DNA of 43,605 nucleotides. Source: a virus. The translations under genes were made by a program, and so were the position numbers. How positions within the stretch are numbered: position 1 is the first letter of the stretch; each line of letters opens with the position of its first letter. This document shows, one piece after another, positions 1-43,605 of this stretch. Below the pieces are notes generated by a model that ran no database searches, was not told where the DNA came from, and worked only from the letters and a program-made list of their open reading frames with translations. The stretch covers positions 1 to 43,605 of the IMG/VR virus record IMGVR_UViG_3300008450_008428. One strand, written 5' to 3'.

Positions 1-731
1 GCAAACTCGACGTAAACAAACCGAGAACGTTTGCAGGAGCACGGCTACGAGGACAGAAGCTAAACCCTCGTGTGCTATATCGCCACCGTCTCGACGACCA
101 AAAGCTATTTGCTCGCCGTGAAATAGAGGCAGTGAAATCTCACGCCTACGCCGTCGCCGTGGACGTTTCAGGCTCTACAGTGTCTCGCTACTCACGTACA
201 AGTGTTAGGGCACTCACGGATGAACTACTCGCAGGAGTATTTATCACGGGAGAGATACTCTCGCAAGTGGACGGCACGATAGAAAGCACCTTGTATACAT
301 TCGATAGCAACGTGTACAAGCTCAAAGGAGCAGGTGAACCCTACGACAGAGCACACGCCGTGAAAGTGGCAGGCGACAGCATAGGGGGAGGAACTTGTAC
401 GAGCTATGCACTCGAGAAAGTGATACAGGAACTCACACCAACCAAGGCAGAGGAACGCCACGCAATTATTATGACCGACGGCGGAGACTCACCTCACGGA
501 CTTATAGAGCAGGCACGACACCTTAGAGAGCAACGTATCGCACTAACAATCGTGTATATAGGCGGAACTACGTTTCTGAAAAATATACTCGACGCACATA
601 GCAGAGCGTGGAAGCAAGGAGCACCAGACCTATACTCGACAGGACGTGTACGCCTTGTTGGAGTGGACACGAAAAAAGCAGACACGCTCGCACCATTACT
701 CGCCGAAGCAATCACTAACACGTACAAGTAA
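1..731 (+). CDS. VWA-domain protein, C-terminal part (CobT-like; continues from 42276-43605)
   Basis: This frame is open from base 3 with no start needed. Base 43605 plus bases 1-2 form one codon, so it continues the gene that begins at 42276; together they encode 686 residues. The C-terminal part is a von Willebrand A domain. A complete MIDAS metal site is visible: D-V-S-G-S (about residues 498-502), a Thr in GGGT (about 575) and an Asp in MTDGGD (about 603). VWA proteins of this kind partner with MoxR/CobS AAA+ ATPases to remodel targets or insert metal; the ATPase is the gene directly upstream. A rho-independent terminator follows 18 nt after the TAA. The substrate is unknown. The family call is firm; calling it a cobaltochelatase subunit would be over-reading, since no cobalamin genes are present. 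Confidence 0.88.
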   Translation, partial: KLDVNKPRTFAGARLRGQKLNPRVLYRHRLDDQKLFARREIEAVKSHAYAVAVDVSGSTVSRYSRTSVRALTDELLAGVFITGEILSQVDGTIESTLYTFDSNVYKLKGAGEPYDRAHAVKVAGDSIGGGTCTSYALEKVIQELTPTKAEERHAIIMTDGGDSPHGLIEQARHLREQRIALTIVYIGGTTFLKNILDAHSRAWKQGAPDLYSTGRVRLVGVDTKKADTLAPLLAEAITNTYK

Positions 732-748
732 AAACACACACCAAACGA

Positions 749-784
749 AAAAACACACGCCTCTATATAGAGGCGTGTGTTTTT
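749..784 (+). terminator. Rho-independent terminator after the VWA gene
   Basis: A perfect 16-bp stem (749-764 with 769-784) has a 4-nt ATAT loop. The right arm ends in five T and the left arm begins with five A, so it should work in both directions. It closes the AAA+/VWA operon 18 nt past its stop codon. Confidence 0.92.
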
Positions 785-811
785 CATATCGTGATACCTA
801 GTATGCAAAGC

Positions 812-7815: not shown

Positions 7816-8985
7816 CTATGGTGTGTAGATTGCAATATGAAAGTCTTCTTTCTTCATCATGCTGTCGTACACACCTTCATCAACCGAGTCAGCGATAATG
7901 AGTGAGTGGTACACATTCTTCTTCAGGTGGCCCATACGCTGTATGCGTCCCATCATTTGTATGTAGTTCTTTAGCTCAAAATCATAGCTGTAGAAGACCA
8001 TAAGGGGACACCATGGTACTTCCCACCCTTCTGAACATTTCGCGTTAACTAGAAGCACCCACGGGTCTTCTTTAGATAGGTTTTGAATGACCTCGTCTTT
8101 GTTTTTCACATCACCACGGATAACAAACACCTTTCGTTCACTAGACAATTCTTCTTCTAACATGTCAAGCTCTTCGTTGTACCTACAAACAACAATGACA
8201 TGCTTGTTCTCGGCAACCAACTCCTTCACACGCTCAACCTTTGGCGTGTCATATCTCTTACCCGAATCCTTCAACGTGCCACCACAAATCTGATGCTCCT
8301 TACTGTAGCGTCCGATAGGGGTGATGTCTTCCAGTTCGCTGATGGCTTTCTTCTGTTCCTTGGTAAGCGTCAAATACTCTTCACTGTACGTCTGTTCAGG
8401 TACGTCAGCGCAGTCACTCATCAACACAATAGAACCGACCTCTTTAACAATCGCGTTCAGCTCTTCTTCTATACCTTCTTTGATAACAGGCACTACACGT
8501 GGGCCAAAGCGTCTTTCATAAAAGAACTGATTACGGAACACAGGGTAGAGTATTTGTTTACCCAAAAGAATGCACATGACGTAGATGTCCCATGGTGTGC
8601 TCCTGTACGCCGTGCCTGTAAGGAACCACACATACTCTGGCTTGTGGGTATGCAGATACCACTTCAAACTTTTATTCAACTGGCTCTTCATTCCAAAGAA
8701 CCAGTGCGCCTCATCTACAATAACAGTCTCAAACTTTTCGATATCTTTAACATGCTTCTTGAATTCCTCCTTGCTGTACACTGACACGTCTACCTTGTAC
8801 TGTCTTGCCTTCCTTACCCAGTGCTCTTTGAGAGCCTTCGGGCATATGACAAGGGTCCTGTACCCTGCCTTATGAGCCATGGCGAGTGACGTAGTGGTCT
8901 TGCCCGTTCCAACTTCGTGAGCGAGGACGTGGCGCCTAGGCATTTCATCGACGAGTTTCTGCTGGTGGTCATAGAGTTTTTCCAT
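7816..8985 (-). CDS. SNF2-type superfamily 2 helicase
   Basis: 389 residues. Conserved SF2 motifs appear in order: a Q-like start (DHQ, residue 8), Walker A (VGTGKTT, about 25-31), motif Ia (LVICPKAL), DEAH (91-94), motif III (LTGTAYRS, 122-129) and motif VI (QMMGRIQRMG, 343-352). The protein is compact, like phage SNF2/DEAD-box helicases that support replication or recombination by moving on dsDNA or remodelling forks. It starts 1 nt after the upstream ATPase stop, so translation is coupled. The duplex or protein it acts on is unknown. Confidence 0.9.
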   Translation of the reverse strand: MEKLYDHQQKLVDEMPRRHVLAHEVGTGKTTTSLAMAHKAGYRTLVICPKALKEHWVRKARQYKVDVSVYSKEEFKKHVKDIEKFETVIVDEAHWFFGMKSQLNKSLKWYLHTHKPEYVWFLTGTAYRSTPWDIYVMCILLGKQILYPVFRNQFFYERRFGPRVVPVIKEGIEEELNAIVKEVGSIVLMSDCADVPEQTYSEEYLTLTKEQKKAISELEDITPIGRYSKEHQICGGTLKDSGKRYDTPKVERVKELVAENKHVIVVCRYNEELDMLEEELSSERKVFVIRGDVKNKDEVIQNLSKEDPWVLLVNAKCSEGWEVPWCPLMVFYSYDFELKNYIQMMGRIQRMGHLKKNVYHSLIIADSVDEGVYDSMMKKEDFHIAIYTP

Positions 8986-8986
8986 A

Positions 8987-10294
8987 CTATCCTTCCTTTG
9001 TAATTTCTTCCCATAACTTATCGGCGTCCATTTGTCTTTGTTCTATATACTCCTTGTTGTCTTCCTCAAAGCCACTCTGTGTGATATCTTCGTACACTCC
9101 ATCACTTTGGCGAATTTCGTATTCTGCGTCTTCACTCACAAGATTATCAGTGCCTTCGTTAACACCTGCATATTTGCTTATGAGGCGTCGTGTTTTCGCT
9201 GTTGCGCGCCACGAATCTCCCGCGCCAACAAACCGTCCTCTACTTTTGGCGCACAGACCACGCACAGACAGGTCTTCAAGCCATGTTCGTATCGTTGTTG
9301 CTGGATACCCAAGCACTGATGAGAGACTTCCTACTGTAGCAGACGCGTGCTCTGTAAGCTTTTCAAGAATCATGTAGCGACCTTTGGGAACACAATCAAC
9401 CAAAAGCTTGTACAGGATTTTCTCGTGGTCAGGACGCAATACACCTCCTGACATATACGCAAACACACTACCAAGAGTAATGATTTGAGACGCCATACGC
9501 ATAGGCATCTCAGAAGAGATAGCCATGGTCATTTCTCCTCGGTAGTTTCTTTCTGTAGAAGAGCGCGACAGCGCCGCAAAGTCAGCCAACTCAATGATGT
9601 TTGTGATAACGTCCTCACTTATCTGTGGCATTTGGTCTGACGGTGGCAGTCCAGCAACCATGGCATCAATGTATTCCTGAAACTTCTCTCGTACCACCGT
9701 TCTTTTAGCGGTAATATCTACGATATTTTCAATGGCGCGACGTGTTGTTTTGAGTCGGTCTTGTGGCTTGAGAACGTATGTAATCCAGCGTGTACCCATT
9801 TGTGCGAATGTCTGCTCGGCTGAATAAATCTTCTCTGTCACACCAGCAATAAGACTTATCTTTCCTTTCCATTCGAGCCTCTTACCTGTTCCTGTTTCTT
9901 TCACTAGATGTCCGTCGTATATCTCACGCATCTGACCCATGATTTCTATCTGCGCATCATGACCCATTGAAAGAATTGTGGTGAAGTCTTTCATTGTGAT
10001 GATGCCATTCTTGATACGCAACAAAAGTGAAGATTGGTTTCCATTTGCGTTATTGAAACCAGACAAGAACGTGTTGGTAGTGAGCATTGAAATCTGGTGC
10101 ACGAACGGTACGCTAAGCGTCATGTTGATAATCTCTGATTTACCACCAGAAGAAGGACCGACAATCATAAGCCATACAGGGTCGCCCTTTAGTCTATTTG
10201 CGATTACAGTCGCTGCGACAAGGGGAATGATGCCCTCGTCTTCAAGGTAATACACAGAACGGTATGTGTTGACGAGGTCATCAATATTAGGCAT
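8987..10294 (-). CDS. P-loop ATPase, probable replicative helicase or loader
   Basis: 435 residues. Walker A is GPSSGGKS (46-53); a Walker-B-like strand ends in MKDF (about 101-104). The middle contains a sensor-like ITLIAG-type stretch (SLIAGVTEK) and Arg-rich helices. The C-terminal part (about 315-375) reads as a winged helix, and the tail is acidic. Such ATPase-plus-winged-helix proteins in phages sit beside primase zinc-finger proteins and act at the fork. It overlaps the primase-like gene by 8 nt. It lacks the usual DnaB layout, so helicase versus loader is open. Confidence 0.75.
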   Translation of the reverse strand: MPNIDDLVNTYRSVYYLEDEGIIPLVAATVIANRLKGDPVWLMIVGPSSGGKSEIINMTLSVPFVHQISMLTTNTFLSGFNNANGNQSSLLLRIKNGIITMKDFTTILSMGHDAQIEIMGQMREIYDGHLVKETGTGKRLEWKGKISLIAGVTEKIYSAEQTFAQMGTRWITYVLKPQDRLKTTRRAIENIVDITAKRTVVREKFQEYIDAMVAGLPPSDQMPQISEDVITNIIELADFAALSRSSTERNYRGEMTMAISSEMPMRMASQIITLGSVFAYMSGGVLRPDHEKILYKLLVDCVPKGRYMILEKLTEHASATVGSLSSVLGYPATTIRTWLEDLSVRGLCAKSRGRFVGAGDSWRATAKTRRLISKYAGVNEGTDNLVSEDAEYEIRQSDGVYEDITQSGFEEDNKEYIEQRQMDADKLWEEITKEG

Positions 10295-10853
10295 ATGTGG
10301 CGAGTTTATGAACTGCTTGTTTAAAATCTACCTTCCATAAGCACATTGCTACATCTATCGTGTCAGCTGACTTGCTACACCCAAAACAAAAGACACTGTT
10401 GCTTTTGGGATAGTAGTGCAGACTTGCTGTCTTGTCAGTGTGAAAAATGCAGTTAACCATTCTTCCTCTCTTAAATTCAAGAAGAGAAGTTACTGGCACT
10501 AACTTTGCTCTACGTATTTCTTCTTCAAAGTTCTGCTTTCCTGCTAACGCTTTAGGACTTTTTGCCCTGTCCATCTCTTTAAGAATCTTCTTGTAGTTCT
10601 CTATTCTGTCTGTCGCTCTCAACTCTCTTCCTGTGAGGTCGTGTGCAACTCTAAATTGAAAGATGAATATTTCAGCTGCCCTGCCCTCAAGATGCTGGAA
10701 GGCAAAAGAGTCTGCGTAATACTCAAGCTCCATCACCTCCTGAATTTCTTGTCGTGCCTCTTTCAAAAGCTCACGAACTCTTCCTCGTGCTACAGCATGG
10801 TACGTTACTGACGCTTCTCTAGCTCGGTTCATCTCCATAAGCTTCGAAGACAA
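10287..10853 (-). CDS. DnaG-type primase zinc-binding protein (CHC2-like)
   Basis: 188 residues. The C-terminal region has C-x2-H (Cys135, His138) and C-x2-C (Cys156, Cys159) with 17 residues between, followed by the D-x-I-D-V-A pattern of the DnaG N-terminal zinc ribbon that reads template DNA. The first 120 residues are helical and unrelated. No TOPRIM polymerase domain is present here or nearby. So this is either a primase-recognition subunit working with a host or unseen catalytic partner, or a repurposed DNA-binding protein. It overlaps both neighbours, showing tight translational coupling. Confidence 0.82.
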   Translation of the reverse strand: MSSKLMEMNRAREASVTYHAVARGRVRELLKEARQEIQEVMELEYYADSFAFQHLEGRAAEIFIFQFRVAHDLTGRELRATDRIENYKKILKEMDRAKSPKALAGKQNFEEEIRRAKLVPVTSLLEFKRGRMVNCIFHTDKTASLHYYPKSNSVFCFGCSKSADTIDVAMCLWKVDFKQAVHKLATYA

Positions 10854-11130
10854 TCACTGGGGTGATGGTGTACTTAGCTACACCAACTTGCTCCTCCTCC
10901 TTCTTTTTCTTCTTTAATTCTTTTTCAAGCCTCTCAACGTCATCTGAGAATGTGTAGGAGCGTCGCTTGCGAAGAGAAAGAGTGCCTAGACCAGAGACTT
11001 CAAGCATATCAACACCCTCCCTGTCCATAGAATTGGATAGCTCCTGTGTTAGCGTTTTTAGCTCCTCACTGTCTTTCGCAACAGAAAGTTTTAATTCTAT
11101 TATTCTCTTTACTTTTTTTAGGTCTATCAT
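10819..11130 (-). CDS. Coiled-coil protein, possibly Gp157/Gam-like
   Basis: 103 residues. An amphipathic N-terminal helix, a short beta hairpin (VSGLGTLSLRKRRSYTFS) and a Lys/Glu-rich coiled coil (EKELKKKKKEEEQVG) before a final strand. This order resembles phage siphovirus Gp157 or host-nuclease-inhibitor (Gam-like) proteins, which protect phage DNA ends. The neighbouring RecB-like nuclease (4-nt overlap) fits a recombination role. The assignment is tentative because coiled coils look alike. Confidence 0.55.
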   Translation of the reverse strand: MIDLKKVKRIIELKLSVAKDSEELKTLTQELSNSMDREGVDMLEVSGLGTLSLRKRRSYTFSDDVERLEKELKKKKKEEEQVGVAKYTITPVIVFEAYGDEPS

Positions 11131-11966
11131 AGTGAAAGCGTTACTTTAGGAGTAATCATCTTTGGATTCCCGTCGTACATGAAGTCATACACCTTACTCA
11201 AGAACAGGTAAGCAGACCACAATTCTCCCAAAGAAGGAAACGCGTGATAGACCGTGTACTGAGGACGCTTCTTTGACAGTTGAACAATCACCCCGTCTTC
11301 GACAGGAAGTGCTGTCATCTCAGCAAAACACTGAGCGTAAGCTGCAATCTGTAGTCCGTAGGTGTCGTCCACTGCGTATGAGGTCTTCCAATCAATGACT
11401 GTGAGCTTCCCCTTGAAGAAGCACAAGAAATCCAAGGTTCCTGCCACCTTGTGTGTTTCGCTTCCGACAACAAGCTCAACAGCAACAGGAATAATGTCAT
11501 CCTTGTGCTCCCTTAGGAAAAGTTCAGCAGACAAAAGACCTGCGACGACCTCAAACTTTGCGTCTTTCGGAGCAAACGTAAGAATATCTTTTGGTCTTTT
11601 GGAGTTCCTTATCCATACGCGAATGTACTTTTCAACACCTTCGTGCACTTGAGTCCCTATGTCAGCAGCAGCACGCATGTTGTCGCCACTAGAACCAATC
11701 GCCATTTTAATTGCATCTTCAGGCTCATGTCCCTCGGCAATCAACTCAGCTGTTTTCTTGGCGGCTTCACGTACTGCCGCATCCTTGTATCCATCATTCT
11801 TTAGAATGACCTTAGTGGATACAGAATCAACCGTCACACCAGATGGTAGCGTGTAGTGATGTCCAAATGCGTCGTGGGCGGGCTTCACCTTATTGGTGAC
11901 TGTTTTCTCTATTAACGCACGGACATTCTCTGCTTCTGCCCAAGTTCGTGTGGCGGTCTTTTTCAT
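11127..11966 (-). CDS. RecB-like PD-(D/E)XK exonuclease
   Basis: 279 residues. The RecB-family nuclease motifs are all visible: G-x-x-x-H (Gly104, His108), a Glu before the core (Glu164), Asp179 in GTLDF, D-W-K (Asp192, Lys194) and Q-x3-Y (Gln206, Tyr210). These bind metal and cut or degrade dsDNA from ends. In phages this is the recombination exonuclease, usually beside an annealing or ssDNA-binding protein; the OB-like gene is 3 nt upstream. No iron-sulphur cysteines are present, so it is not Cas4-type. Confidence 0.87.
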   Translation of the reverse strand: MKKTATRTWAEAENVRALIEKTVTNKVKPAHDAFGHHYTLPSGVTVDSVSTKVILKNDGYKDAAVREAAKKTAELIAEGHEPEDAIKMAIGSSGDNMRAAADIGTQVHEGVEKYIRVWIRNSKRPKDILTFAPKDAKFEVVAGLLSAELFLREHKDDIIPVAVELVVGSETHKVAGTLDFLCFFKGKLTVIDWKTSYAVDDTYGLQIAAYAQCFAEMTALPVEDGVIVQLSKKRPQYTVYHAFPSLGELWSAYLFLSKVYDFMYDGNPKMITPKVTLSL

Positions 11967-11969
11967 AGG

Positions 11970-12305
11970 TTAGGGCTTCTTAACGAACACTTGGATAGAC
12001 TTTGCTGGGTGATGTCCTTTAACCGCAGGAGGAATTTCTTTCTCAAAGCGGAAACCAAGGATGTCACCTACCTCTGCCTTACTTGCTCGTGTGATTACAT
12101 ACTCCTTGCGCAAGTCGATACCAACCTTAACGTCAGTACCGTCTGGCTGCTTAAGCACGAAGACGCGGCGTGCACCGAAGCCATCTTTTTCTGGCTGGTC
12201 AAATATTTCCACTACTTCACCAGCAATCTTGTCTCCGACGTTGGTGAAAGAAAACCAGTTAGACTGTGGAATATTAGATTCGTTGAATAGTTCATCGTCG
12301 TTCAT
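11970..12305 (-). CDS. OB-fold-like protein, possible ssDNA-binding protein
   Basis: 111 residues, beta-rich. The order (VGDKIAGEVVEIFD strand-turn-strand, ARRVFVLKQPDG, then a G-x-x-L-G-F-x-F strand late) fits an OB barrel. It is translated just before the RecB-like nuclease. A single-strand-binding or annealing-cofactor role is likely, but it lacks the acidic tail typical of SSB. Upstream, TTGTCA (12332-12337 on the minus strand) and TATACA at 12311-12316 may give a promoter only 5 nt before the ATG. Confidence 0.55.
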   Translation of the reverse strand: MNDDELFNESNIPQSNWFSFTNVGDKIAGEVVEIFDQPEKDGFGARRVFVLKQPDGTDVKVGIDLRKEYVITRASKAEVGDILGFRFEKEIPPAVKGHHPAKSIQVFVKKP

Positions 12306-12729: not shown

Positions 12730-12755
12730 TTTTGTACTACAATAATTTTGTACTA
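12730..12755 (+). repeat. Direct repeat of TTTTGTACTA
   Basis: Two exact 10-bp copies, 12730-12739 and 12746-12755, with a 16-bp period. They fill the gap between the terminator and the ATG at 12771. They may be an operator or part of a second promoter (TTGTAC spaced 16 bp from TAATAA). Confidence 0.55.
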
Positions 12756-12770
12756 ATAACCGTCACGTTT

Positions 12771-13208
12771 ATGCAAATTACAGCACGAGAACTCATACAG
12801 CTTTGGGCATGGTTCTCAGGTCCAGTTCATGGTGTAGAAGCAAGACAGCGCAATGTTTTTGTAAGGGAGTATAAGGCTTCATACGAACAAGCTGTGCAAG
12901 GCCGTAAGGATGTTCTAGCTTCTTTGGCAGACAAAGATGAAAACGGAAAGGCCATTGTAGAACAGGGCAAGTATAAAATTCCTGATGAGAAGCTTGATGA
13001 GGCGAAAGACCTCGTTAACAAGTATCTCGACGAGACAACATACGAAATTCTCCCAGAAACCAAAGGACAAAAAGAGTCTCTAAGGTCTGTCTACACAATT
13101 CTTAAAGACAAGCCAATGGTTGCTGGAGGAATAACACTTGAAGACGGAGAAGTGTACGACTCTCTTCTAACAAAGATTGAGGAAGCACTTAAAGTTGTTA
13201 AGGGGTAA
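12771..13208 (+). CDS. Isolated rightward gene of unknown function
   Basis: 145 residues, helical, highly charged, no membrane segment or known motif. The start (MQITARELIQLWAWFSGPVHG) is followed by long helices rich in Lys/Glu/Asp. It is the only rightward gene among the leftward block from 6.6 to 38.3 kb. It lies behind a regulated divergent region and its own terminator-like leader, and it ends at a strong bidirectional hairpin. This moron-like isolation suggests expression on a different schedule, for example a host-modifying or decision protein. No ribosome-binding site precedes the ATG. Confidence 0.7.
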   Translation: MQITARELIQLWAWFSGPVHGVEARQRNVFVREYKASYEQAVQGRKDVLASLADKDENGKAIVEQGKYKIPDEKLDEAKDLVNKYLDETTYEILPETKGQKESLRSVYTILKDKPMVAGGITLEDGEVYDSLLTKIEEALKVVKG

Positions 13209-26350: not shown

Positions 26351-29300
26351 CTAGGTTCCATCAGTTGTTCGTCCGTACGAACAAGTAGGATTTGCTACTG
26401 CACCGCTTACTGAACCGATGTCGTACATGATTGTCTCTCCTGCTGTAAAGGAGTTATTACTTGAAAGAGTGGTGAATGTTGTTGTGAGACCTGTCGCTGA
26501 AACTACGGCTGTAGAGGTTGCTGTACCGTCTCCAACTCGCGCTACGAATGTACCTCCTCCTGTTCCCTTACAACCAAACTGCGTGAACGTAGTCGCGCGT
26601 GGGAAACCTGACACTTGTAGTGTGGTTGTACCTGTACCAAGTGAAGAAGTTGCGTATAGAAACGCTGAAGAAATCAACGGGTCAATTACTTGTGTGGCAC
26701 TTCCAGACTGGTATTTAAGCTGATTGTTTGTTGAGTCAATTCCAATGTCTCCGTTTGTTGCGAGGGCAAGTGCTGCTGAATATGGAATACGGAGAAGGTC
26801 AGTAAATACACCCTTCACAAACGTCACGATACCTGACGTTGCGATTGAGATAGCTGAGACTGATGAGGTGGCGTAGGTAGAAGGTGAGGCAGTCGCAATC
26901 ATCAAGTTGCCTACGTTGTTTCTGAATACCCAGTGGTCAGATGTAAGCGTTGCGTCAGAAAGTGAAAGTTGAGCTGATGTTCCTGCAACTTGCAATTTCC
27001 AGTTTGGCGTAGTTGTGCCAACACCTGTATTTCCACCGTTCAAAATGGTCACATACGCCGTGTCGTTTGTACCGAGGTCTAGCGCGCCTGTAGTTTTTCC
27101 AAACACTTCGTGTCTACTGCCTGAGCTCACGCCTAGTTGAAGACCGCTAGTGCTAGATTGCGAGGAACGATGAATGTTGATATAGCTTGCGTTGCTTCCT
27201 TGGAATGAGGCTGAGTTGGGGCTGGCTGACGCTTGTACAGAGAATATGCGTGGAGGGGTGGTAGTACCCACACCCACGTTTCCTGCGTTGTTTACAACCA
27301 ACAGTGTAGTTGATGCACTATTCACAAGTTCGAAGGCGCGTGTAGCTGCAGTTGCGCCAGCTCCCCAGACTGAAAGACGTGCGTATGGTGAGGTGGTGCC
27401 GATACCGACATTACCAGTACTGTCTATTCTCATTTGCTCACTTCCTGATGTGACGAATCCAAGTGTATTTGCTCCTGCTCTGTAGATACCCGTATCGGTG
27501 TCATTAGCCCACGACCAATCAGGAGTCGCCACAGATGTCAAAGCACGAGCAAGAATCTGACCACCGTTTGAGATTGTTAGGTTTGTGTTGTTTGTACCTG
27601 TACTATCCATATTCGTGAACAAAATGTCTGAAGGAATGATGCCGTCAGATACGGTACCGTTCACACGACCTTGGATTCGTGCAGATTCAACGAACTGTGT
27701 ACCGTCCGCACCCTGAAATGATATGTTGCCGAGTTGATGGTTTGTAGATACTGCTGTGTATGAGCCAACAGTTGCTCCACCTGACTTACCAAGGTACAAG
27801 CCTGGACCTGTCTGAGCAGACGTGTATCTTGCAACAGCCTGAATACCAGACGCTGCTGCGGTTCCAATGTTTTGAAGAATAGGAGTCACGCGAGTAGTAG
27901 ATGCCTGTTGTGCTGTAGTGAACGTCTGAAAATCAGTAGCTCCTATTATAGCTCCAGTTGAGACTGATAGGTTTGTCGTTGATGCGTTTGCAATTGTCTG
28001 AGTACCTGCCCAAGTGTTAGAGGTTGTAGTTCCAAAAGCTAGTCCTATTGCATTTACTGTGCGTGTCACGGGATAAGTGAATGTGAGAGGAACTTGGTAG
28101 TCGGTATCGGCTACGGCTGTACCTATCATAGAAGTACCGTTGCCCTTGAGTATTCCAGTGAGTGTTGTTGAGCCTGTACCTCCGTTAGCTACTGGAAGTG
28201 TTCCTGTAACTTCGGCTGAGGCAAGGTCTACTGAAGTTCCAAGTGTAGTTTGTAGTGCGCCTGCGACAATTTGAAGCCCTGTTCCTGTAATGTCTGATAT
28301 AAAGTCAGAACCCATTTGGAAGGCTGTAGTTGCGTAGAGTTTAGGAAACGTTGAAGTAGCACTTGTTGAAGTGCCTACAAAATAGGGTGCGCCTATTTTA
28401 CTTGACTCAATACCTCCAGCGAATGTTGTAGTTCCTGAGTTAGAGAATGAGTTTAGCCCACTCCACTGGTTTGCGGTGGTTGTACCAAATGCAAGCGATA
28501 CTGTGTTGGCTGAAAATTGTACCGGGTAGGTAGCTGAGATAGGTGCTTGGTAGTCTGTTCCTGCTGAGGCAACTGACACAGCACCTGAAGAAGACTTTAA
28601 AAGACCTGTGAGAGACGTAGCAAGGCGTGTAGCTCCGTCAATGTTTACTCCTCCGTAGAATGTAGCTCCAGCACCACCTCCTGCTCCAAACAAAGCAACG
28701 TTAGTGTAGTTGTTTGATACTACATACACACCGTCAGAAGCATCTCCACGAATACCGTGAGTGGTAAGAAACTTTAGATGAGGCATTGTAATATCACCTG
28801 CAAAGGTAGAAGTAGCTGTTGAGGAGGTCGCCACAAAATAGGGCGCACCTATAAGTGTTCCTGTTTCTACACCACCTGCAAAAGTGGTTGTTCCTGTGTT
28901 TGAGAATGAATTAAGACCTGACCATGCATTGTTAGTTGTAGTACCAAAAGCTAATCCAATAGTTCCAGTAGTAGTGATAGAGCCACCTGTGACTGGGTAG
29001 GTGGTGTCTATTTGGGTGACAGTTCCTGAGCCTCCACCCGTGGTTGAAAGAGTAGTACCATCATAGGTAAGTCCTGAACCTACTACGAGAGAGCCTATCT
29101 GTGAGGTACCGTTGCCTTTGAGAATACCTGTAAGGGTAGTGGAGCCTGTGCCTCCGTTTGCTACGGGTAGAGCACCGGTGACGTCTGACGTTAGGTTTAC
29201 GGATTCACACGTTGCAACGCCAAGAGCTGACAGCGCACGAATGAATTGGTTGGTGCATGTAGTTCCTGCGTATTCTTGCACTGAGCCAGCGCCTGTGACT

Positions 29301-29557
29301 TGCAAAAGAGCAGACGTTAAACCTGTAATGCCGAAATTGGTAGTTGTACCATTACCTGCAAAGAAGTTAGCAAAGAATGGAGTGGATGTCGCGGATAGTT
29401 TTGAGTTTGCCGCCGAAGATGTTGCAACAATAAAACCTCCGTACGGAGAAAGAACCTGTTGGTTTTGTGCAGGTACAATCTGTGCGTGAGCCACAGTTCC
29501 AAATAGCAATGCCGAAATAAGTGCTGCTGCTGCGAGAATGTAAATGAATGTCTTCAT
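26351..29557 (-). CDS. Large exported fibre protein
   Basis: 1068 residues. A Sec signal peptide is clear: MKTFIYILAAAALISALLFG, then VAHA and a polar start. The rest is Ser/Thr/Gly/Asn-rich beta-helix-like sequence. Two copies of a block containing LPVANGGTGSTTLTGILKGN occur, with repeated GLNSFSN-type blocks. Motifs GNVGIGTTSP, GNVGVGTTTP and GNTGVGTTTP, typical of long fibres, appear later, and the C-terminus has a two-Cys domain (FGCKGTGG; NPTCSYG). Signal peptides are unusual for virion fibres. The protein may be exported and displayed, or follow a host-style surface route. Confidence 0.68.
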   Translation of the reverse strand: MKTFIYILAAAALISALLFGTVAHAQIVPAQNQQVLSPYGGFIVATSSAANSKLSATSTPFFANFFAGNGTTTNFGITGLTSALLQVTGAGSVQEYAGTTCTNQFIRALSALGVATCESVNLTSDVTGALPVANGGTGSTTLTGILKGNGTSQIGSLVVGSGLTYDGTTLSTTGGGSGTVTQIDTTYPVTGGSITTTGTIGLAFGTTTNNAWSGLNSFSNTGTTTFAGGVETGTLIGAPYFVATSSTATSTFAGDITMPHLKFLTTHGIRGDASDGVYVVSNNYTNVALFGAGGGAGATFYGGVNIDGATRLATSLTGLLKSSSGAVSVASAGTDYQAPISATYPVQFSANTVSLAFGTTTANQWSGLNSFSNSGTTTFAGGIESSKIGAPYFVGTSTSATSTFPKLYATTAFQMGSDFISDITGTGLQIVAGALQTTLGTSVDLASAEVTGTLPVANGGTGSTTLTGILKGNGTSMIGTAVADTDYQVPLTFTYPVTRTVNAIGLAFGTTTSNTWAGTQTIANASTTNLSVSTGAIIGATDFQTFTTAQQASTTRVTPILQNIGTAAASGIQAVARYTSAQTGPGLYLGKSGGATVGSYTAVSTNHQLGNISFQGADGTQFVESARIQGRVNGTVSDGIIPSDILFTNMDSTGTNNTNLTISNGGQILARALTSVATPDWSWANDTDTGIYRAGANTLGFVTSGSEQMRIDSTGNVGIGTTSPYARLSVWGAGATAATRAFELVNSASTTLLVVNNAGNVGVGTTTPPRIFSVQASASPNSASFQGSNASYINIHRSSQSSTSGLQLGVSSGSRHEVFGKTTGALDLGTNDTAYVTILNGGNTGVGTTTPNWKLQVAGTSAQLSLSDATLTSDHWVFRNNVGNLMIATASPSTYATSSVSAISIATSGIVTFVKGVFTDLLRIPYSAALALATNGDIGIDSTNNQLKYQSGSATQVIDPLISSAFLYATSSLGTGTTTLQVSGFPRATTFTQFGCKGTGGGTFVARVGDGTATSTAVVSATGLTTTFTTLSSNNSFTAGETIMYDIGSVSGAVANPTCSYGRTTDGT

Positions 29558-38605: not shown

Positions 38606-38765
38606 GCGAGAAGAGGTATATAAAAAATGAGAAAAAGACTATTATTTTCAAAAAATATTACGTTTATAGAAATAAGACCTAGACAAAAATGAAAAAATGT
38701 GGTATAATAATTTAAGAGACAAAAAACAAAAGTCTTTTTCTCATTTTTTCTATTCCCCTTCTCGC
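38606..38765. repeat. 35-bp imperfect inverted repeat flanking a promoter
   Basis: Arms 38606-38640 and 38731-38765 match at 32 of 35 positions in inverted orientation, including a perfect 19-bp core (38622-38640 with 38731-38749). The 90 bases between them are A+T-rich and contain the rightward promoter 38680-38708. No recombinase gene is recognised, so an origin, cruciform or operator is as likely as an invertible segment. Confidence 0.82.
38680..38708 (+). promoter_or_regulatory. Rightward promoter inside the inverted repeat
   Basis: TAGACA (38680-38685; 5 of 6), 17-bp spacer, perfect TATAAT (38703-38708) with the extension TGTGG. It should drive the AAA+/VWA operon, with a leader of over 350 bases. 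Confidence 0.8.
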
Positions 38766-39074: not shown

Positions 39075-39260
39075 ATGCAAAGAATAAGCACACAAACGAT
39101 TCTTTTTCGTCTATACAATGACGCAATACTCTCGTTGTATGACGCTACAGGTAAACTACAGCACCATATTTTCAAGCGTGCAATTCTCTCTCAAGGAGTA
39201 ATTGAAATAACGCTTAAAAATGGTCGCACCTTTACTATCACTTGTACAGAGAAAGTATGA
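39075..39260 (+). CDS. Small hypothetical protein, first of the AAA+/VWA operon
   Basis: 61 residues, beta-rich: repeated hydrophobic strands (TILFRLYNDAILSLYD; GVIEITLKNGRTFTITC). It ends in ATGA overlap with the next gene, so translation is coupled. Function unknown. The fold could be a small beta barrel. Confidence 0.65.
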   Translation: MQRISTQTILFRLYNDAILSLYDATGKLQHHIFKRAILSQGVIEITLKNGRTFTITCTEKV

Positions 39261-40042
39261 AAGGAGTACAAGGAGACGACAAGGCACGACTCGCAACGTG
39301 TATGCTGTTAAACATCACAGCGCACACAGACGGAGACGAAATACCTGTTTCACTTGTCGTTGGACAGTTAAAACAACAATCTTACGAGGAGTCTATTCGA
39401 GGGGACAAAGTAAACCCCGAGGACGACAAAAAGATTACTGACTTTTTTGAAAATGACGCACTAGGACAAACCTACGGATTGCCTATCACGTGCACAATCA
39501 CAAAAGACAGCAAAAAGAAATATCACTCACACGTATCAGTAGTTATACCTCTACCCGAGGAAGTGCTCGACTCTAACGGACGAGTAGACAAGAAAGCACT
39601 CGAAGCTATGCCAAAGGAGAAACTTTGCGCCGTAGGTTTCGAGCTAGGACTCTCAGAGAATATCGAGGACAGTCTCGAAGCAATCACAAGCTACAGTGCA
39701 GGCTACCTATCGACAATTGTCGCACCTAAGACAATCTCAATAAACGAACTACCCAAGGAGATTGTCTCGAACATACAAGCGCACCACGACAACCCAGAGC
39801 ACGATTGCGCTACAGCTCACCCAGACACACACACGCAAGAACCCGAGGACGACGCTATCGACCTGCTACGCCAAGAAGCAGAAAAAGCAAAGCAGTATCG
39901 AGAACTCGCCGACACCTACGGACTCGAGGAAATACGAGCAATCGCACTACGTGCAGGCGTAAAACTTCCTGATGACCTACTCGAGCAACCGCCAGTAAAG
40001 TCCAAGACCAAACTATCAACTGTTCGTAAACCTAAAAAATAA
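39257..40042 (+). CDS. Hypothetical acidic protein
   Basis: 261 residues starting in the ATGA overlap (an upstream TTG is less likely). The first 90 residues are mixed alpha/beta; a middle part has VVIPLPEEVLDSNG; the C-terminal third is His/Asp/Glu-rich (HHDNPEHDCATAHPDTHTQEPEDD) and then helical (LRQEAEKAKQYRELAD), ending in a basic tail (KTKLSTVRKPKK). The acidic His-rich segment might bind metal. No family recognised. Conserved position before the AAA+/VWA genes suggests a shared pathway. Confidence 0.7.
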   Translation: MKGVQGDDKARLATCMLLNITAHTDGDEIPVSLVVGQLKQQSYEESIRGDKVNPEDDKKITDFFENDALGQTYGLPITCTITKDSKKKYHSHVSVVIPLPEEVLDSNGRVDKKALEAMPKEKLCAVGFELGLSENIEDSLEAITSYSAGYLSTIVAPKTISINELPKEIVSNIQAHHDNPEHDCATAHPDTHTQEPEDDAIDLLRQEAEKAKQYRELADTYGLEEIRAIALRAGVKLPDDLLEQPPVKSKTKLSTVRKPKK

Positions 40043-40182
40043 TGACTACACCATTCATTCTCACCTTGCTTGCACTCACCGTGATTGCTCTCACACTCAC
40101 GCTCAAAGAACTCTTTACCGAGTGCGACCACTCAGATTATTCAAAATGTGTAAACGAACTCACGTATGACGAACTTGCATAG
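40042..40182 (+). CDS. Single-helix membrane peptide
   Basis: 46 residues; TAATG overlap with the previous gene and 17-nt overlap with the next. A transmembrane helix (about 4-21, PFILTLLALTVIALTLTL) precedes an acidic tail with two cysteines. It is hidden between larger frames but strictly coupled on both sides. It may bring the operon's complex to the membrane. Confidence 0.68.
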   Translation: MTTPFILTLLALTVIALTLTLKELFTECDHSDYSKCVNELTYDELA

Positions 40183-40460: not shown

Positions 40461-40838
40461 ATGCAACACGCAACACAAACCACAATTACCCTTGAAGCAG
40501 ATACCCTTACTGTATCTTACTCAAAGGGAGTGCTCACGCTCACCACAACCGCAACGCCTACACCAAGCACACCAAAGGCAACCGCAACACCTACACCAAA
40601 GGCAACCAAGCGACGCAAGCGCATTTACTCGTTAGGAGTATCAAAGGCAGACCGCCAAGACCTCACCACGCTTGTACAAGGCGAACAACGCCCCACGAGC
40701 GTATACCTTGCACGCTATTCAACAAACCTTAAACGCCTAACCAAGTACCTCAACTCGCTTGCCTACGAGACACGCAAGGCTACAGGCGCACCGTATAAGC
40801 TACGCACACGGCACGACTACATTACTCGTATTGACTAG
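40461..40838 (+). CDS. Basic protein with Thr-Pro linker
   Basis: 125 residues from the ATG at 40461. A beta-rich N-terminus (TTITLEADTLTVSYSKGVLTL) is joined by a Thr/Pro/Ala/Lys linker (about 31-50, with repeated TPTPKAT) to a strongly basic helical C-terminus (KRRKRIYSLGVSK; RYSTNLKRLTKYLNS). The tail is likely DNA- or RNA-binding. No ribosome-binding site (AACCACC before the ATG). Family unknown. Confidence 0.68.
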   Translation: MQHATQTTITLEADTLTVSYSKGVLTLTTTATPTPSTPKATATPTPKATKRRKRIYSLGVSKADRQDLTTLVQGEQRPTSVYLARYSTNLKRLTKYLNSLAYETRKATGAPYKLRTRHDYITRID

Positions 40839-40848
40839 CGCACCGAGT

Positions 40849-41148
40849 ATGCTCACCTTACACGAAACGCTAGAGGAAAAGGGTATCGACCCTGCTACGT
40901 GGAACGAGCACGACACAATAAGGGACATAAACGCCGTGCTGTACGATTGCAGGCTACCCTTGCAACTACTTCCTTACGAGGGCTTACTGCTTGCGGTATA
41001 CAACTCAACGTATCTAGGAAAGTCAATAGTACTCACGTACACAGCGTACACGGACACGCCGACCCTATTTGCACTCGCGACACACCTCACAAACTTACTC
41101 GAGCAAGGGGAACTAATAGACGAACATCTTGCACTAAAAACACAATAA
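40849..41148 (+). CDS. Hypothetical protein upstream of the AAA+ gene
   Basis: 99 residues. Mixed alpha/beta with many Leu/Thr/Tyr; contains WNEHDTIRDINAVLYDC and a C-terminal acidic helix (LLEQGELIDEHLALK). The ATG at 40849 is chosen because it follows the previous stop; longer in-frame starts would overlap that gene. It ends 2 nt before the AAA+ start. Probably part of the same pathway. Confidence 0.68.
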   Translation: MLTLHETLEEKGIDPATWNEHDTIRDINAVLYDCRLPLQLLPYEGLLLAVYNSTYLGKSIVLTYTAYTDTPTLFALATHLTNLLEQGELIDEHLALKTQ

Positions 41149-41150
41149 CT

Positions 41151-42269
41151 ATGACCGCCACTAAACAAAAGACAACCACCGCAAAGCCAAAAGCGACACG
41201 CAAGCGCACTATTAAACTGCTTGCAGACTTGCCAATCGCAACTGAGGGAGCAGAACACGTACCGCACCACGCACAGCCCTATCACGACCACGACGGACTA
41301 CTCTCTATGCTCATGCTCGCCTTGAACGAAAATATGCCTGCACTCGTTATCGGAGACACAGGCACAGGCAAGACAAGTGCTATCAGACACCTAGCAAAGG
41401 TACACGGCGCACCGTTTAGGCGTATCAACCTAAACGGAGGGACAACCGTGGACGAACTCACAGGGCGTATAATGCTAAACAAAGACGGCACAGTGTGGAT
41501 TGACGGAGCCTTGACCGAAGCCATGCGTAAAGGGTACTGGATTGTACTCGACGAAATAAACGCTTGTGGAGCAGACGTCCTATTCCTATTGCACTCACTG
41601 CTAGACGATGACCGTATGATTGTGCTAACGGAGCATAACGGAGAAGTGGTGCGACCTCACGAAGCCTTCAGAGTATTTGCTACGGCAAACCCTACAGGCG
41701 ACTATGCAGGAACTCGTGAAATGAACAAGGCACTTCTCTCACGATTCCCTATTGTCCTCAACGCAAACTATCCGACGGTAGCACGTGAAATTGCCATTAT
41801 TGCCGAGCGTGTACCAGAACTCGCCGAAGAACTCACCACTGCACTAGTAAAGACAGCTCACGGAGCACGACAAGCGCACAAGGAGGGAAGGCTTGACTTC
41901 ATTTTCTCAACTCGAGATATTCTCAACACGGCGTATATTACCGCACGAATGGGAGGGAACGCCTTAGCAGTAAAAAGTGCTATGAAAGTATGTATTGCAG
42001 GCAAATGCTCAAAGGAGGACGCAGGCGCAATATCAGATATCCTAAACACGCACCTTAAGGGAGAAGAAACCGCACAAGTAAAGACAAGGGAGCAGTGTAT
42101 CGCCGAGTACCTAGGCAAAATAGAGTGCAATTCTTGCCACGCTAAGGGACTTGTCGACGCAGGCAACCCAGTACCAGACGGCGACACTATCCGTTATGCT
42201 TGCGCCTGCGGGTATTGCTACTGGCTCACCGTAAACAAGGACGGCACAAAAATTACTCACACCACCTAG
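41151..42269 (+). CDS. MoxR/CobS-like AAA+ ATPase with C-terminal zinc ribbon
   Basis: 372 residues. Lys/Thr-rich N-terminus (1-20), then an AAA+ core: Walker A GDTGTGKT (68-75), Walker B IVLDEIN (131-137), sensor 1 (ATANPT, 177-182) and a probable Arg finger in LLSRFP (Arg198). The pattern is that of MoxR/CbbQ/CobS ATPases, hexameric motors that remodel targets together with a VWA protein. The C-terminus adds C-x2-C and C-x-C-x2-C (about residues 325-360), a zinc ribbon not usual for MoxR proteins. The VWA partner is the next gene, 6 nt downstream. The longer in-frame start at 40899 would overlap the 40849 gene and is rejected. Confidence 0.92.
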   Translation: MTATKQKTTTAKPKATRKRTIKLLADLPIATEGAEHVPHHAQPYHDHDGLLSMLMLALNENMPALVIGDTGTGKTSAIRHLAKVHGAPFRRINLNGGTTVDELTGRIMLNKDGTVWIDGALTEAMRKGYWIVLDEINACGADVLFLLHSLLDDDRMIVLTEHNGEVVRPHEAFRVFATANPTGDYAGTREMNKALLSRFPIVLNANYPTVAREIAIIAERVPELAEELTTALVKTAHGARQAHKEGRLDFIFSTRDILNTAYITARMGGNALAVKSAMKVCIAGKCSKEDAGAISDILNTHLKGEETAQVKTREQCIAEYLGKIECNSCHAKGLVDAGNPVPDGDTIRYACACGYCYWLTVNKDGTKITHTT

Positions 42270-42275
42270 TCTTAT

Positions 42276-43605
42276 ATGTCTTTACTCGACGCATACAACC
42301 CAGACTGGTACAAGCCACGCCCTAAAAAAGCGACGGCAAGTGTGTGGAAGCGACATCACCGAACGTACAGCGCATACGATTATACGCAGTACGGCGATAT
42401 CGAGGACTACACGGACACGCTACAGGCGACAGCGCAGTGGATAGGAACCATGGCAAGCGCATTTGCAGGAGCGTATAAAATGACGCTACTACAGGGCGAC
42501 GCTTGGAACGTGGACACTGCAACACGCACGCTTACCTACCCTATCGCAGACCTTGAAACCCTAAACCGCAAGAACGCACTCGCACTGCTACTGCACCAAA
42601 TAGGAATGACACTGTACACGGACACCGTGGACACCTCAAAGCTAGACAAGGACGGAGCGCAACGCCTACGGACGACAATGCACACACTCGAGGACGCACG
42701 CATTACCGAAAAAGTACGCCAGACGTATGCAAACGGCGACAACATAGTACGCACCTTGAACCAACAGGGACTCGAAGCGTCTCGCATATTCTTAGAACGT
42801 GCAAGGGACACGGCACGCAAGGCAAAGGATATGCTCACCGCACACCAAAACGGACGACCTAACTGGCTCACTAACAAGCTTGTCGAGATAGAAAACGCAA
42901 TACAGGCAGGCAAAGCCCTAAACGTAGAGCAGAAGCAACTCGACGAACTACAAAAGACAAAAGACGACGTACTCGCTATGGTAGAGCGTCAAGCAAAAAC
43001 ACTAGACGAACCCTACGCCGAAACCGTCGCCCTACTCGCACAGCGATACTACTACAGCGACGCACTAGGCTACTACGATTACGCAAAGCCCTTGCTCAAT
43101 ACCGAAGCAGAACAACTTGGCTACCAAGTAGCACAGGTGATGAAAGCGCAAGGTATAGGCAAGTGTACGACCACCGCCGAGACAGTAGCGTTTTACGTTG
43201 TGCACCTACTTCCCTTAATAGGCTCACTTCCTGTATCGCACGAGGACACCCGAAAGCAAGACCGCAAAAGCGAACCGAACGAAAGCGACGCACCAGACGG
43301 ACGTACACGCACAGGACGAAGCGCAGGAGCCAAGGAGACAAACCGCAAGGAAAAAAAGACGGAGAGGACAGACAGCAAAGCCGAAGCACAACGTGCAAAA
43401 CGAGACGCACGCACGCTCGAGGACACGCTCGACAAGCTCAAAGAGAATAAGGCAGTGCAAAGGCACACGCCAGACAATCCGCAGTGGTCAATAGGAAACT
43501 CACCGCACACAAGCGGATTGCTTACCGCTATGGAAGCGTATGCGTGGTATATAGCACCGTACAGAGGACATATCGCCCGAGCAGTAGCCCACGTGAACCG
43601 CAAAC
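42276..43605 (+). CDS. VWA-domain protein, N-terminal part (CobT-like; continues at 1-731)
   Basis: 443 complete codons to the window end; the last base starts a codon completed by bases 1-2. The N-terminal 330 residues are mostly helical. They include H-Q-I-G-M-T-L-Y-T (107-115), a degenerate form of the HExxH-like motif seen in VWA proteins of this type (Gln for Glu, Met for the second His), so no protease activity is expected. A Lys/Arg/Glu/Asp-rich linker (about 340-420) follows, as in CobT, then the MIDAS domain encoded at 1-731. It starts 6 nt after the AAA+ stop with no ribosome-binding site, so it is translationally coupled. The full protein of 686 residues is complete. Confidence 0.88.
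   Translation, partial: MSLLDAYNPDWYKPRPKKATASVWKRHHRTYSAYDYTQYGDIEDYTDTLQATAQWIGTMASAFAGAYKMTLLQGDAWNVDTATRTLTYPIADLETLNRKNALALLLHQIGMTLYTDTVDTSKLDKDGAQRLRTTMHTLEDARITEKVRQTYANGDNIVRTLNQQGLEASRIFLERARDTARKAKDMLTAHQNGRPNWLTNKLVEIENAIQAGKALNVEQKQLDELQKTKDDVLAMVERQAKTLDEPYAETVALLAQRYYYSDALGYYDYAKPLLNTEAEQLGYQVAQVMKAQGIGKCTTTAETVAFYVVHLLPLIGSLPVSHEDTRKQDRKSEPNESDAPDGRTRTGRSAGAKETNRKEKKTERTDSKAEAQRAKRDARTLEDTLDKLKENKAVQRHTPDNPQWSIGNSPHTSGLLTAMEAYAWYIAPYRGHIARAVAHVNRK

Follow-up and report, generated by a model that had tools for sequence, protein, structure and literature searches.

What does the AAA+ ATPase/VWA protein pair at the end of a phage operon do, and does it act with the six genes that precede it? 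The window analyzed here is the whole of one IMG/VR virus record (IMGVR_UViG_3300008450_008428, 43,605 bases), in which the initial annotation had proposed an undescribed system composed of this pair and four or more partners. The VWA open reading frame leaves the right end of the record and continues in frame from base 3, for a total of 686 aa without a stop; 42276–43605 therefore holds only part of the gene, as had been proposed. GCAAAC is common to both contig ends (43600–43605 and 1–6) and, together with the in-frame read-through, makes it very probable that the record closes on itself, as a circularly permuted genome. A six-base duplication at the contig join is possible. We found no tRNA genes in the window, no nucleotide match to it in phages, and no close relatives in single-protein scans of IMG/VR with the ATPase, the VWA protein, or the portal as a query. 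A host search, by scanning genome contigs with the major capsid protein (MCP), also gave no match.

A promoter-like site and a terminator-like hairpin bracket a run of six small ORFs, the ATPase gene, and the VWA gene (Table 1). The promoter-like site matches 11 of 12 consensus positions but is called by consensus only, with two such sites found against 1.8 expected in shuffles. The hairpin passed the T-run test on the minus strand.

Table 1. Features of the ATPase/VWA operon and of the proteins that it encodes.
Feature	Position	Strand	Basis or remark
Promoter-like site TAGACA-17-TATAAT, extended -10	38680..38708	+	5' of operon
ORF, 61 aa, no assigned family	39075..39260	+	Pfam, PHROGs; no homologue near other pairs
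ORF, 261 aa, overlaps preceding gene by 4 bases	39257..40042	+	No match in phages, PDB, Pfam, PHROGs
ORF, 46 aa, single membrane helix by inspection	40042..40182	+	ORF call
ORF, 93 aa	40166..40447	+	ORF call
ORF, 125 aa from ATG; longest ORF from TTG 40386	40461..40838	+	ORF call
ORF, 99 aa from ATG; longest ORF from TTG 40759	40849..41148	+	ORF call
MoxR/CobS-class AAA+ ATPase, 372 aa	41151..42269	+	PF07728 5e-29; CbbQ_C 8e-6; phrog_249 1.5e-52
Walker A GDTGTGKT	41352..41375	+	ATPase alignment
Walker B WIVLDEIN	41538..41561	+	ATPase alignment
C-terminal ribbon-like cysteine cluster CNSC-x21-CACGYC	42126..42218	+	ATPase sequence
VWA protein, N-terminal part, residues 1-443 plus one base	42276..43605	+	In-frame join; phrog_5298 6.9e-6
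HQIGM in place of HExxH zinc-peptidase motif (degenerate)	42594..42608	+	Codons CAC CAA ATA GGA ATG
LEDARIT, conserved second motif (family: LEDxRIE)	42687..42707	+	Alignment of 22 sequences
VWA protein, C-terminal part with VWA domain	1..731	+	In-frame join; BLASTP to L207 VWA 1e-10
MIDAS motif DVSGS	162..176	+	Translation; D-x-S-G-S invariant in family alignment
Terminator-like hairpin, near-perfect palindrome	748..785	.	3' of VWA stop codon; 17 pairs

The ATPase belongs to the MoxR/AAA_5 class, as initially annotated. It scored 101.5 bits against PF07728 (cut-off 22), its Walker A and B motifs are intact, and the alignment places sensor-1 at N180 and an arginine finger in SRFP. Its PDB matches are CbbQ, NorQ, and CobS, and 650 phage records contain a match to it. 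The extra zinc ribbon that had been noted at its C-terminus corresponds to a ribbon-like cysteine cluster. Among the other matched ATPases, only that of halovirus Hardycor1 (L028) has a comparable C-terminal arrangement of cysteine pairs; the Gordonia phage ATPase has cysteine pairs nearer to its N-terminus. In the ATPase tree, where branches are long, the window sequence grouped with Gordonia phages, but this grouping is unsure. A single-sequence fold model of the ATPase was poor (pLDDT 43) and unusable.

The adjoining 686-aa protein matched PF00092 below the gathering cut-off (19.2 bits versus 23.8, E = 0.0016), its match to phrog_5298 is weak, and tblastn with its C-terminal half gave no match in phages. 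Its translation, aligned to the family, contains the complete MIDAS set (DVSGS, GGGT, and TDG), and the MIDAS reported initially is real. The N-terminal domain was recovered by hhalign against a phage-family profile built without the window sequence (95.8%, E = 8e-9), and by BLASTP against its nearest relative, IMGVR_UViG_3300035180_000831 (hereafter L207; 3e-10). A fold model of this domain, made from 22 sequences (pLDDT about 80 over residues 45–150), gave minigluzincins as its best Foldseek matches, with selecase at the top, although all were weak (E 0.2–2, best 0.23). VIA returned selecase, SPRTN-type proteins, ArdC, abylysin, and jannalysin, also weakly (Z 5.3–5.9), and the fold matches were mixed with unrelated helical proteins. 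The N-terminal domain is probably a minigluzincin/SprT-like metallopeptidase, and its catalytic residues have been lost.

The loss is confined to the catalytic motif, which the initial annotation had recognized as a degenerate HExxH. H107, E139, D140, and R142 are invariant in 22 aligned sequences, and the window protein loses only E108 and H111. The change from HExxH to HQxxM requires E to Q plus H to M, that is, several bases, and so does not come from one miscalled base; with the rest of the domain intact, we rejected a sequencing error. The relatives came from two sets: the first comprises 80 ATPase loci of IMG/VR plus 80 found in bacterial and archaeal genomes, and the second 62 further IMG/VR loci retrieved with a window-tuned query. 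Among VWA proteins that cover the motif region, 71 in the first set and 46 of 54 in the second have an intact HExxH, hence 117 relatives over both sets. The other eight in the second set comprise three truncated or split proteins, two degenerate ones, and three without an alignable domain. The window is not the sole dead copy, since two phage copies are degenerate too (NAIAY in L208, QNAAL in L258). Three AAA+/VWA pairs (L264, L266, and L267) lack any alignable metallopeptidase domain in the VWA protein and may represent a further protease-free lineage.

A pair of this kind is already known, since it has been described in three reports. Group 2.2 jumbo phages carry a MoxR-vWA pair with a metallopeptidase at the N-terminus of the VWA protein, and this pair was proposed to act in virion assembly (Iyer et al. 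2021, PMC7824862); viral CobST was proposed to borrow the host CobN (Liu et al., PMC8651126); and the Hardycor1 paper remarks on the adjacency of the ATPase and VWA genes (PMC7911831). The idea of an undescribed system was thus not upheld. In our searches, the ATPase adjoins a CobT-like or VWA protein in Gordonia phages, ICP2, Chidiebere, cyanophages, and Hardycor1, and a VWA gene was present in 68 of 80 IMG/VR loci of the first set (where several loci are truncated) and in 54 of the 62 loci of the second.

L207 has an ATPase 45% identical to that of the window over 277 aa and an adjoining VWA protein, in the same order, whose N-terminal and VWA domains both align with those of the window. However, its HExxH is intact (HETGH) and its ATPase has no C-terminal cysteine cluster. 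The cyanophage, ICP2, Gordonia, and Hardycor1 pairs likewise join a phrog_249-like AAA+ protein to a VWA protein with an N-terminal metallopeptidase-like domain, but keep HExxH. The VWA gene comes before the AAA+ gene in cyanophages, ICP2, and Hardycor1, and after it in the window and in Gordonia phages. By its textual description, the jumbo phage pair has the same architecture (PMC7824862); the window shares the adjacent genes and the N-terminal domain, but not the intact peptidase motif. NorQ/NorD and CbbQ/CbbO also combine a MoxR-class ATPase with a VWA partner, and differ from the window in the N-terminal domain of that partner and in genomic setting. We did not recover the MoxR-vWA-beta-propeller ternary conflict system, for which PF20030 scored 20.6 bits against a cut-off of 27 and no third component was recognized, nor MADS or other PADLOC systems, where matches were weak and generic to AAA proteins (mad8, 2e-4). 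The window pair is therefore a peptidase-dead variant of the known phage AAA+/VWA family, with a cysteine cluster added to the ATPase.

Next, we asked whether the six upstream ORFs belong with the pair. The six coupled genes noted initially are present, one of them a 46-aa ORF resembling a membrane helix, with starts revised to those in Table 1, and their codon scores agree with those of the phage's other genes. An eight-gene system with these proteins as dedicated partners would explain why the genes are so tightly coupled, in a single run between one promoter-like site and one terminator-like hairpin. The initial annotation had proposed to look for their co-occurrence with the pair in related genomes, and phmmer and BLASTP of the six against every ORF of approximately 150 pair loci found no homologue, the best E-values being at chance level (0.16 in the first set and 0.053 in the second). 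Neither did the L207 contig hold a counterpart of any of them. Comparison by hhalign with neighbours of the Gordonia, ICP2, Chidiebere, and Hardycor1 pairs recovered the ATPase and VWA controls and nothing for the upstream genes. Pfam, PHROGs, and PADLOC gave nothing significant for the six, and the 261-aa protein had no match in phages and no PDB chain. Small, fast-evolving partners could escape such searches. Nevertheless, we regard an eight-gene system as very improbable: no homologue of the upstream ORFs was detected in the approximately 150 loci or in L207, so the unit is a two-gene cassette.

The pair is likewise independent of the virion module. In the 45,554-base L207 record, only the ATPase and VWA genes are common with the window, and no other window gene was matched. 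Conversely, four IMG/VR contigs share the portal, decoration or MCP, and tail genes of the window at 34–60% identity, and these contigs, which may be incomplete, yielded no convincing ATPase copy and no phrog_5298 match. In one of them, G001, a 510-aa protein gave a short AAA match that stayed below threshold. The conserved unit is thus the pair alone, not tied to one virion type. The virion genes of G001, G002, G007, and G008 (L017–L038) resemble those of the window, while their terminases and early genes are different; these virion genes are a mosaic module in a small phage group.

What surrounds the pair in relatives is usually replication genes rather than virion genes, judged from raw counts. 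The commonest neighbours in the first viral set were a sliding clamp (51 loci), a clamp loader (40), and an SbcC-like protein (27), but these raw counts come mostly from T4-like cyanophages and are not independent. In the more varied second set, the top PHROGs among 72 neighbouring proteins were DNA primase, polymerase, DnaB helicase, helicase, ligase, and exonuclease, and by raw count no head or tail family was among the 25 most frequent. The window pair itself is on the opposite strand from the replication genes (7816–12305, minus strand) and does not adjoin them. This block encodes an SNF2-like helicase, a 435-aa P-loop protein without a family match, a PD-(D/E)XK exonuclease, and a 188-aa protein with a DnaG CHC2 zinc ribbon, apparently without the catalytic primase domain.

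How might the pair work? The best explanation, which we consider probable, is that it is an AAA+ motor with a VWA adaptor, of the phage CobST-like/MoxR-vWA family, that remodels a target without cutting it. In NorQD, the VWA protein inserts a finger into the pore of the ATPase, and a linker is twisted at the expense of ATP (cryo-EM, PMC13036017). By analogy with NorQD and CobST, the phage pair probably remodels a bound target. We accept the class of remodelling machine named initially. The ATPase would form a ring that binds the VWA protein, and ATP use would pull or twist the latter so that the target protein complex is remodelled. In most phage relatives, the N-terminal metallopeptidase of the VWA protein would then cut the target. 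In the window phage, the domain is kept and its catalytic residues are lost; the target would presumably be remodelled or presented uncut. That the peptidase was lost repeatedly, while the ATPase and MIDAS stayed intact, suggests that the motor-adaptor action is the core function and that cutting is optional. The target might be a replication or DNA-bound protein complex. This last step is tentative, well short of an even chance, and is proposed because the pairs of relatives sit among replication genes. The literature that we searched contained no biochemistry for any phage member of the AAA+/VWA family.

A more specific reading makes the phage 'CobST' pairs a replication-linked machine for protein removal, equivalent in phages to the partnership of SPRTN and p97. 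The AAA+ ring would feed DNA-bound proteins to a VWA-anchored SprT-like protease, and the window phage would carry a protease-dead form capable of remodelling only; we consider this unlikely. The same replication setting counts against a chaperone for virion assembly, a role that has a reported precedent in p618/p892 of Acidianus two-tailed virus, has been suggested for jumbo phages (PMC7824862), and is in keeping with the chaperone activity of MoxR-vWA pairs in several settings. In the window, the proposal lacks support, since the contigs that share the virion genes, perhaps as fragments, show no pair, and the L207 contig and the window share no detectable virion gene; a virion chaperone is thus unlikely. 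A counter-defence or host-takeover device, which would dismantle a host complex, fits an early-type operon of uncharacterized genes on the strand opposite to the virion genes, and the domain model also resembles the ArdC antirestriction metalloprotease. This resemblance is weak, however, and no defence or counter-defence model matched beyond generic AAA similarity, which leaves such a device quite unlikely.

The remaining alternative is a cobaltochelatase helper: together with a CobN from the host, the pair would raise cobalamin, a proposal made for archaeal and other tailed viruses (PMC8651126). CobST is also an AAA+ plus VWA pair, the window proteins show CobS-like and CobT-like homology, and bona fide CobT proteins (G009–G012, 853–960 bits) have no HExxH, as in the window. 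The CobT N-terminus aligned weakly with the phage domain (E 0.0024–0.0036, score 27–29 against 16 for the best of 30 shuffles), which suggests, without proving, that the two are the same domain. However, the window ATPase scored 77.8 bits against the CobS model TIGR01650, far from the equivalog cut-off of 558.55, and the CobT models (TIGR01651, PF06213, and PF11775) did not match the VWA protein, so the pair is not an ordinary CobS/CobT duplicate. In agreement with the initial annotation, neither CobN nor any other cobalamin gene was found among the window proteins scanned with Pfam, the two longest included. Moreover, a peptidase motif is retained in most phage members, unlike in CobT. We therefore consider a cobaltochelatase helper improbable, and favor the motor-adaptor reading.

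Relatives of this ATPase occur in hundreds of sequenced phages, where they are often annotated as cobalamin or porphyrin genes. Such annotation is misleading, to judge from the replication setting and from the peptidase motif with its repeated loss. With naturally active and dead versions of the protease at hand, the function of the pair can be tested cleanly.

Elsewhere in the window, a lone plus-strand gene (phrog_1401, 12732–13208) lies within a long minus-strand block, and 26351–29557 on the minus strand encodes a 1068-aa secreted-looking protein rich in SATSTP-like and TGTTTF repeats. We associate this style with Patescibacteria, and we suspected such a host from the style of the tail proteins only. 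Among the relatives, the ATPase relative of Microbacterium phage A3Wally (L031, 4800–8160) has as neighbours, in place of a VWA partner, an rIIB-like gene and the gene of a large GHKL/rIIA-looking protein. A Paraburkholderia chromosome (L119, 3419–6432) has a CobST-like pair followed by a DnaJ-domain-like protein, and a second, better CobT match elsewhere in the genome. Lastly, a short contig from a Poribacteria MAG (L120, 2–4085) combines an HExxH-bearing AAA+/VWA pair with a VapC-like toxin gene and an apparent Rad52-type recombination protein.
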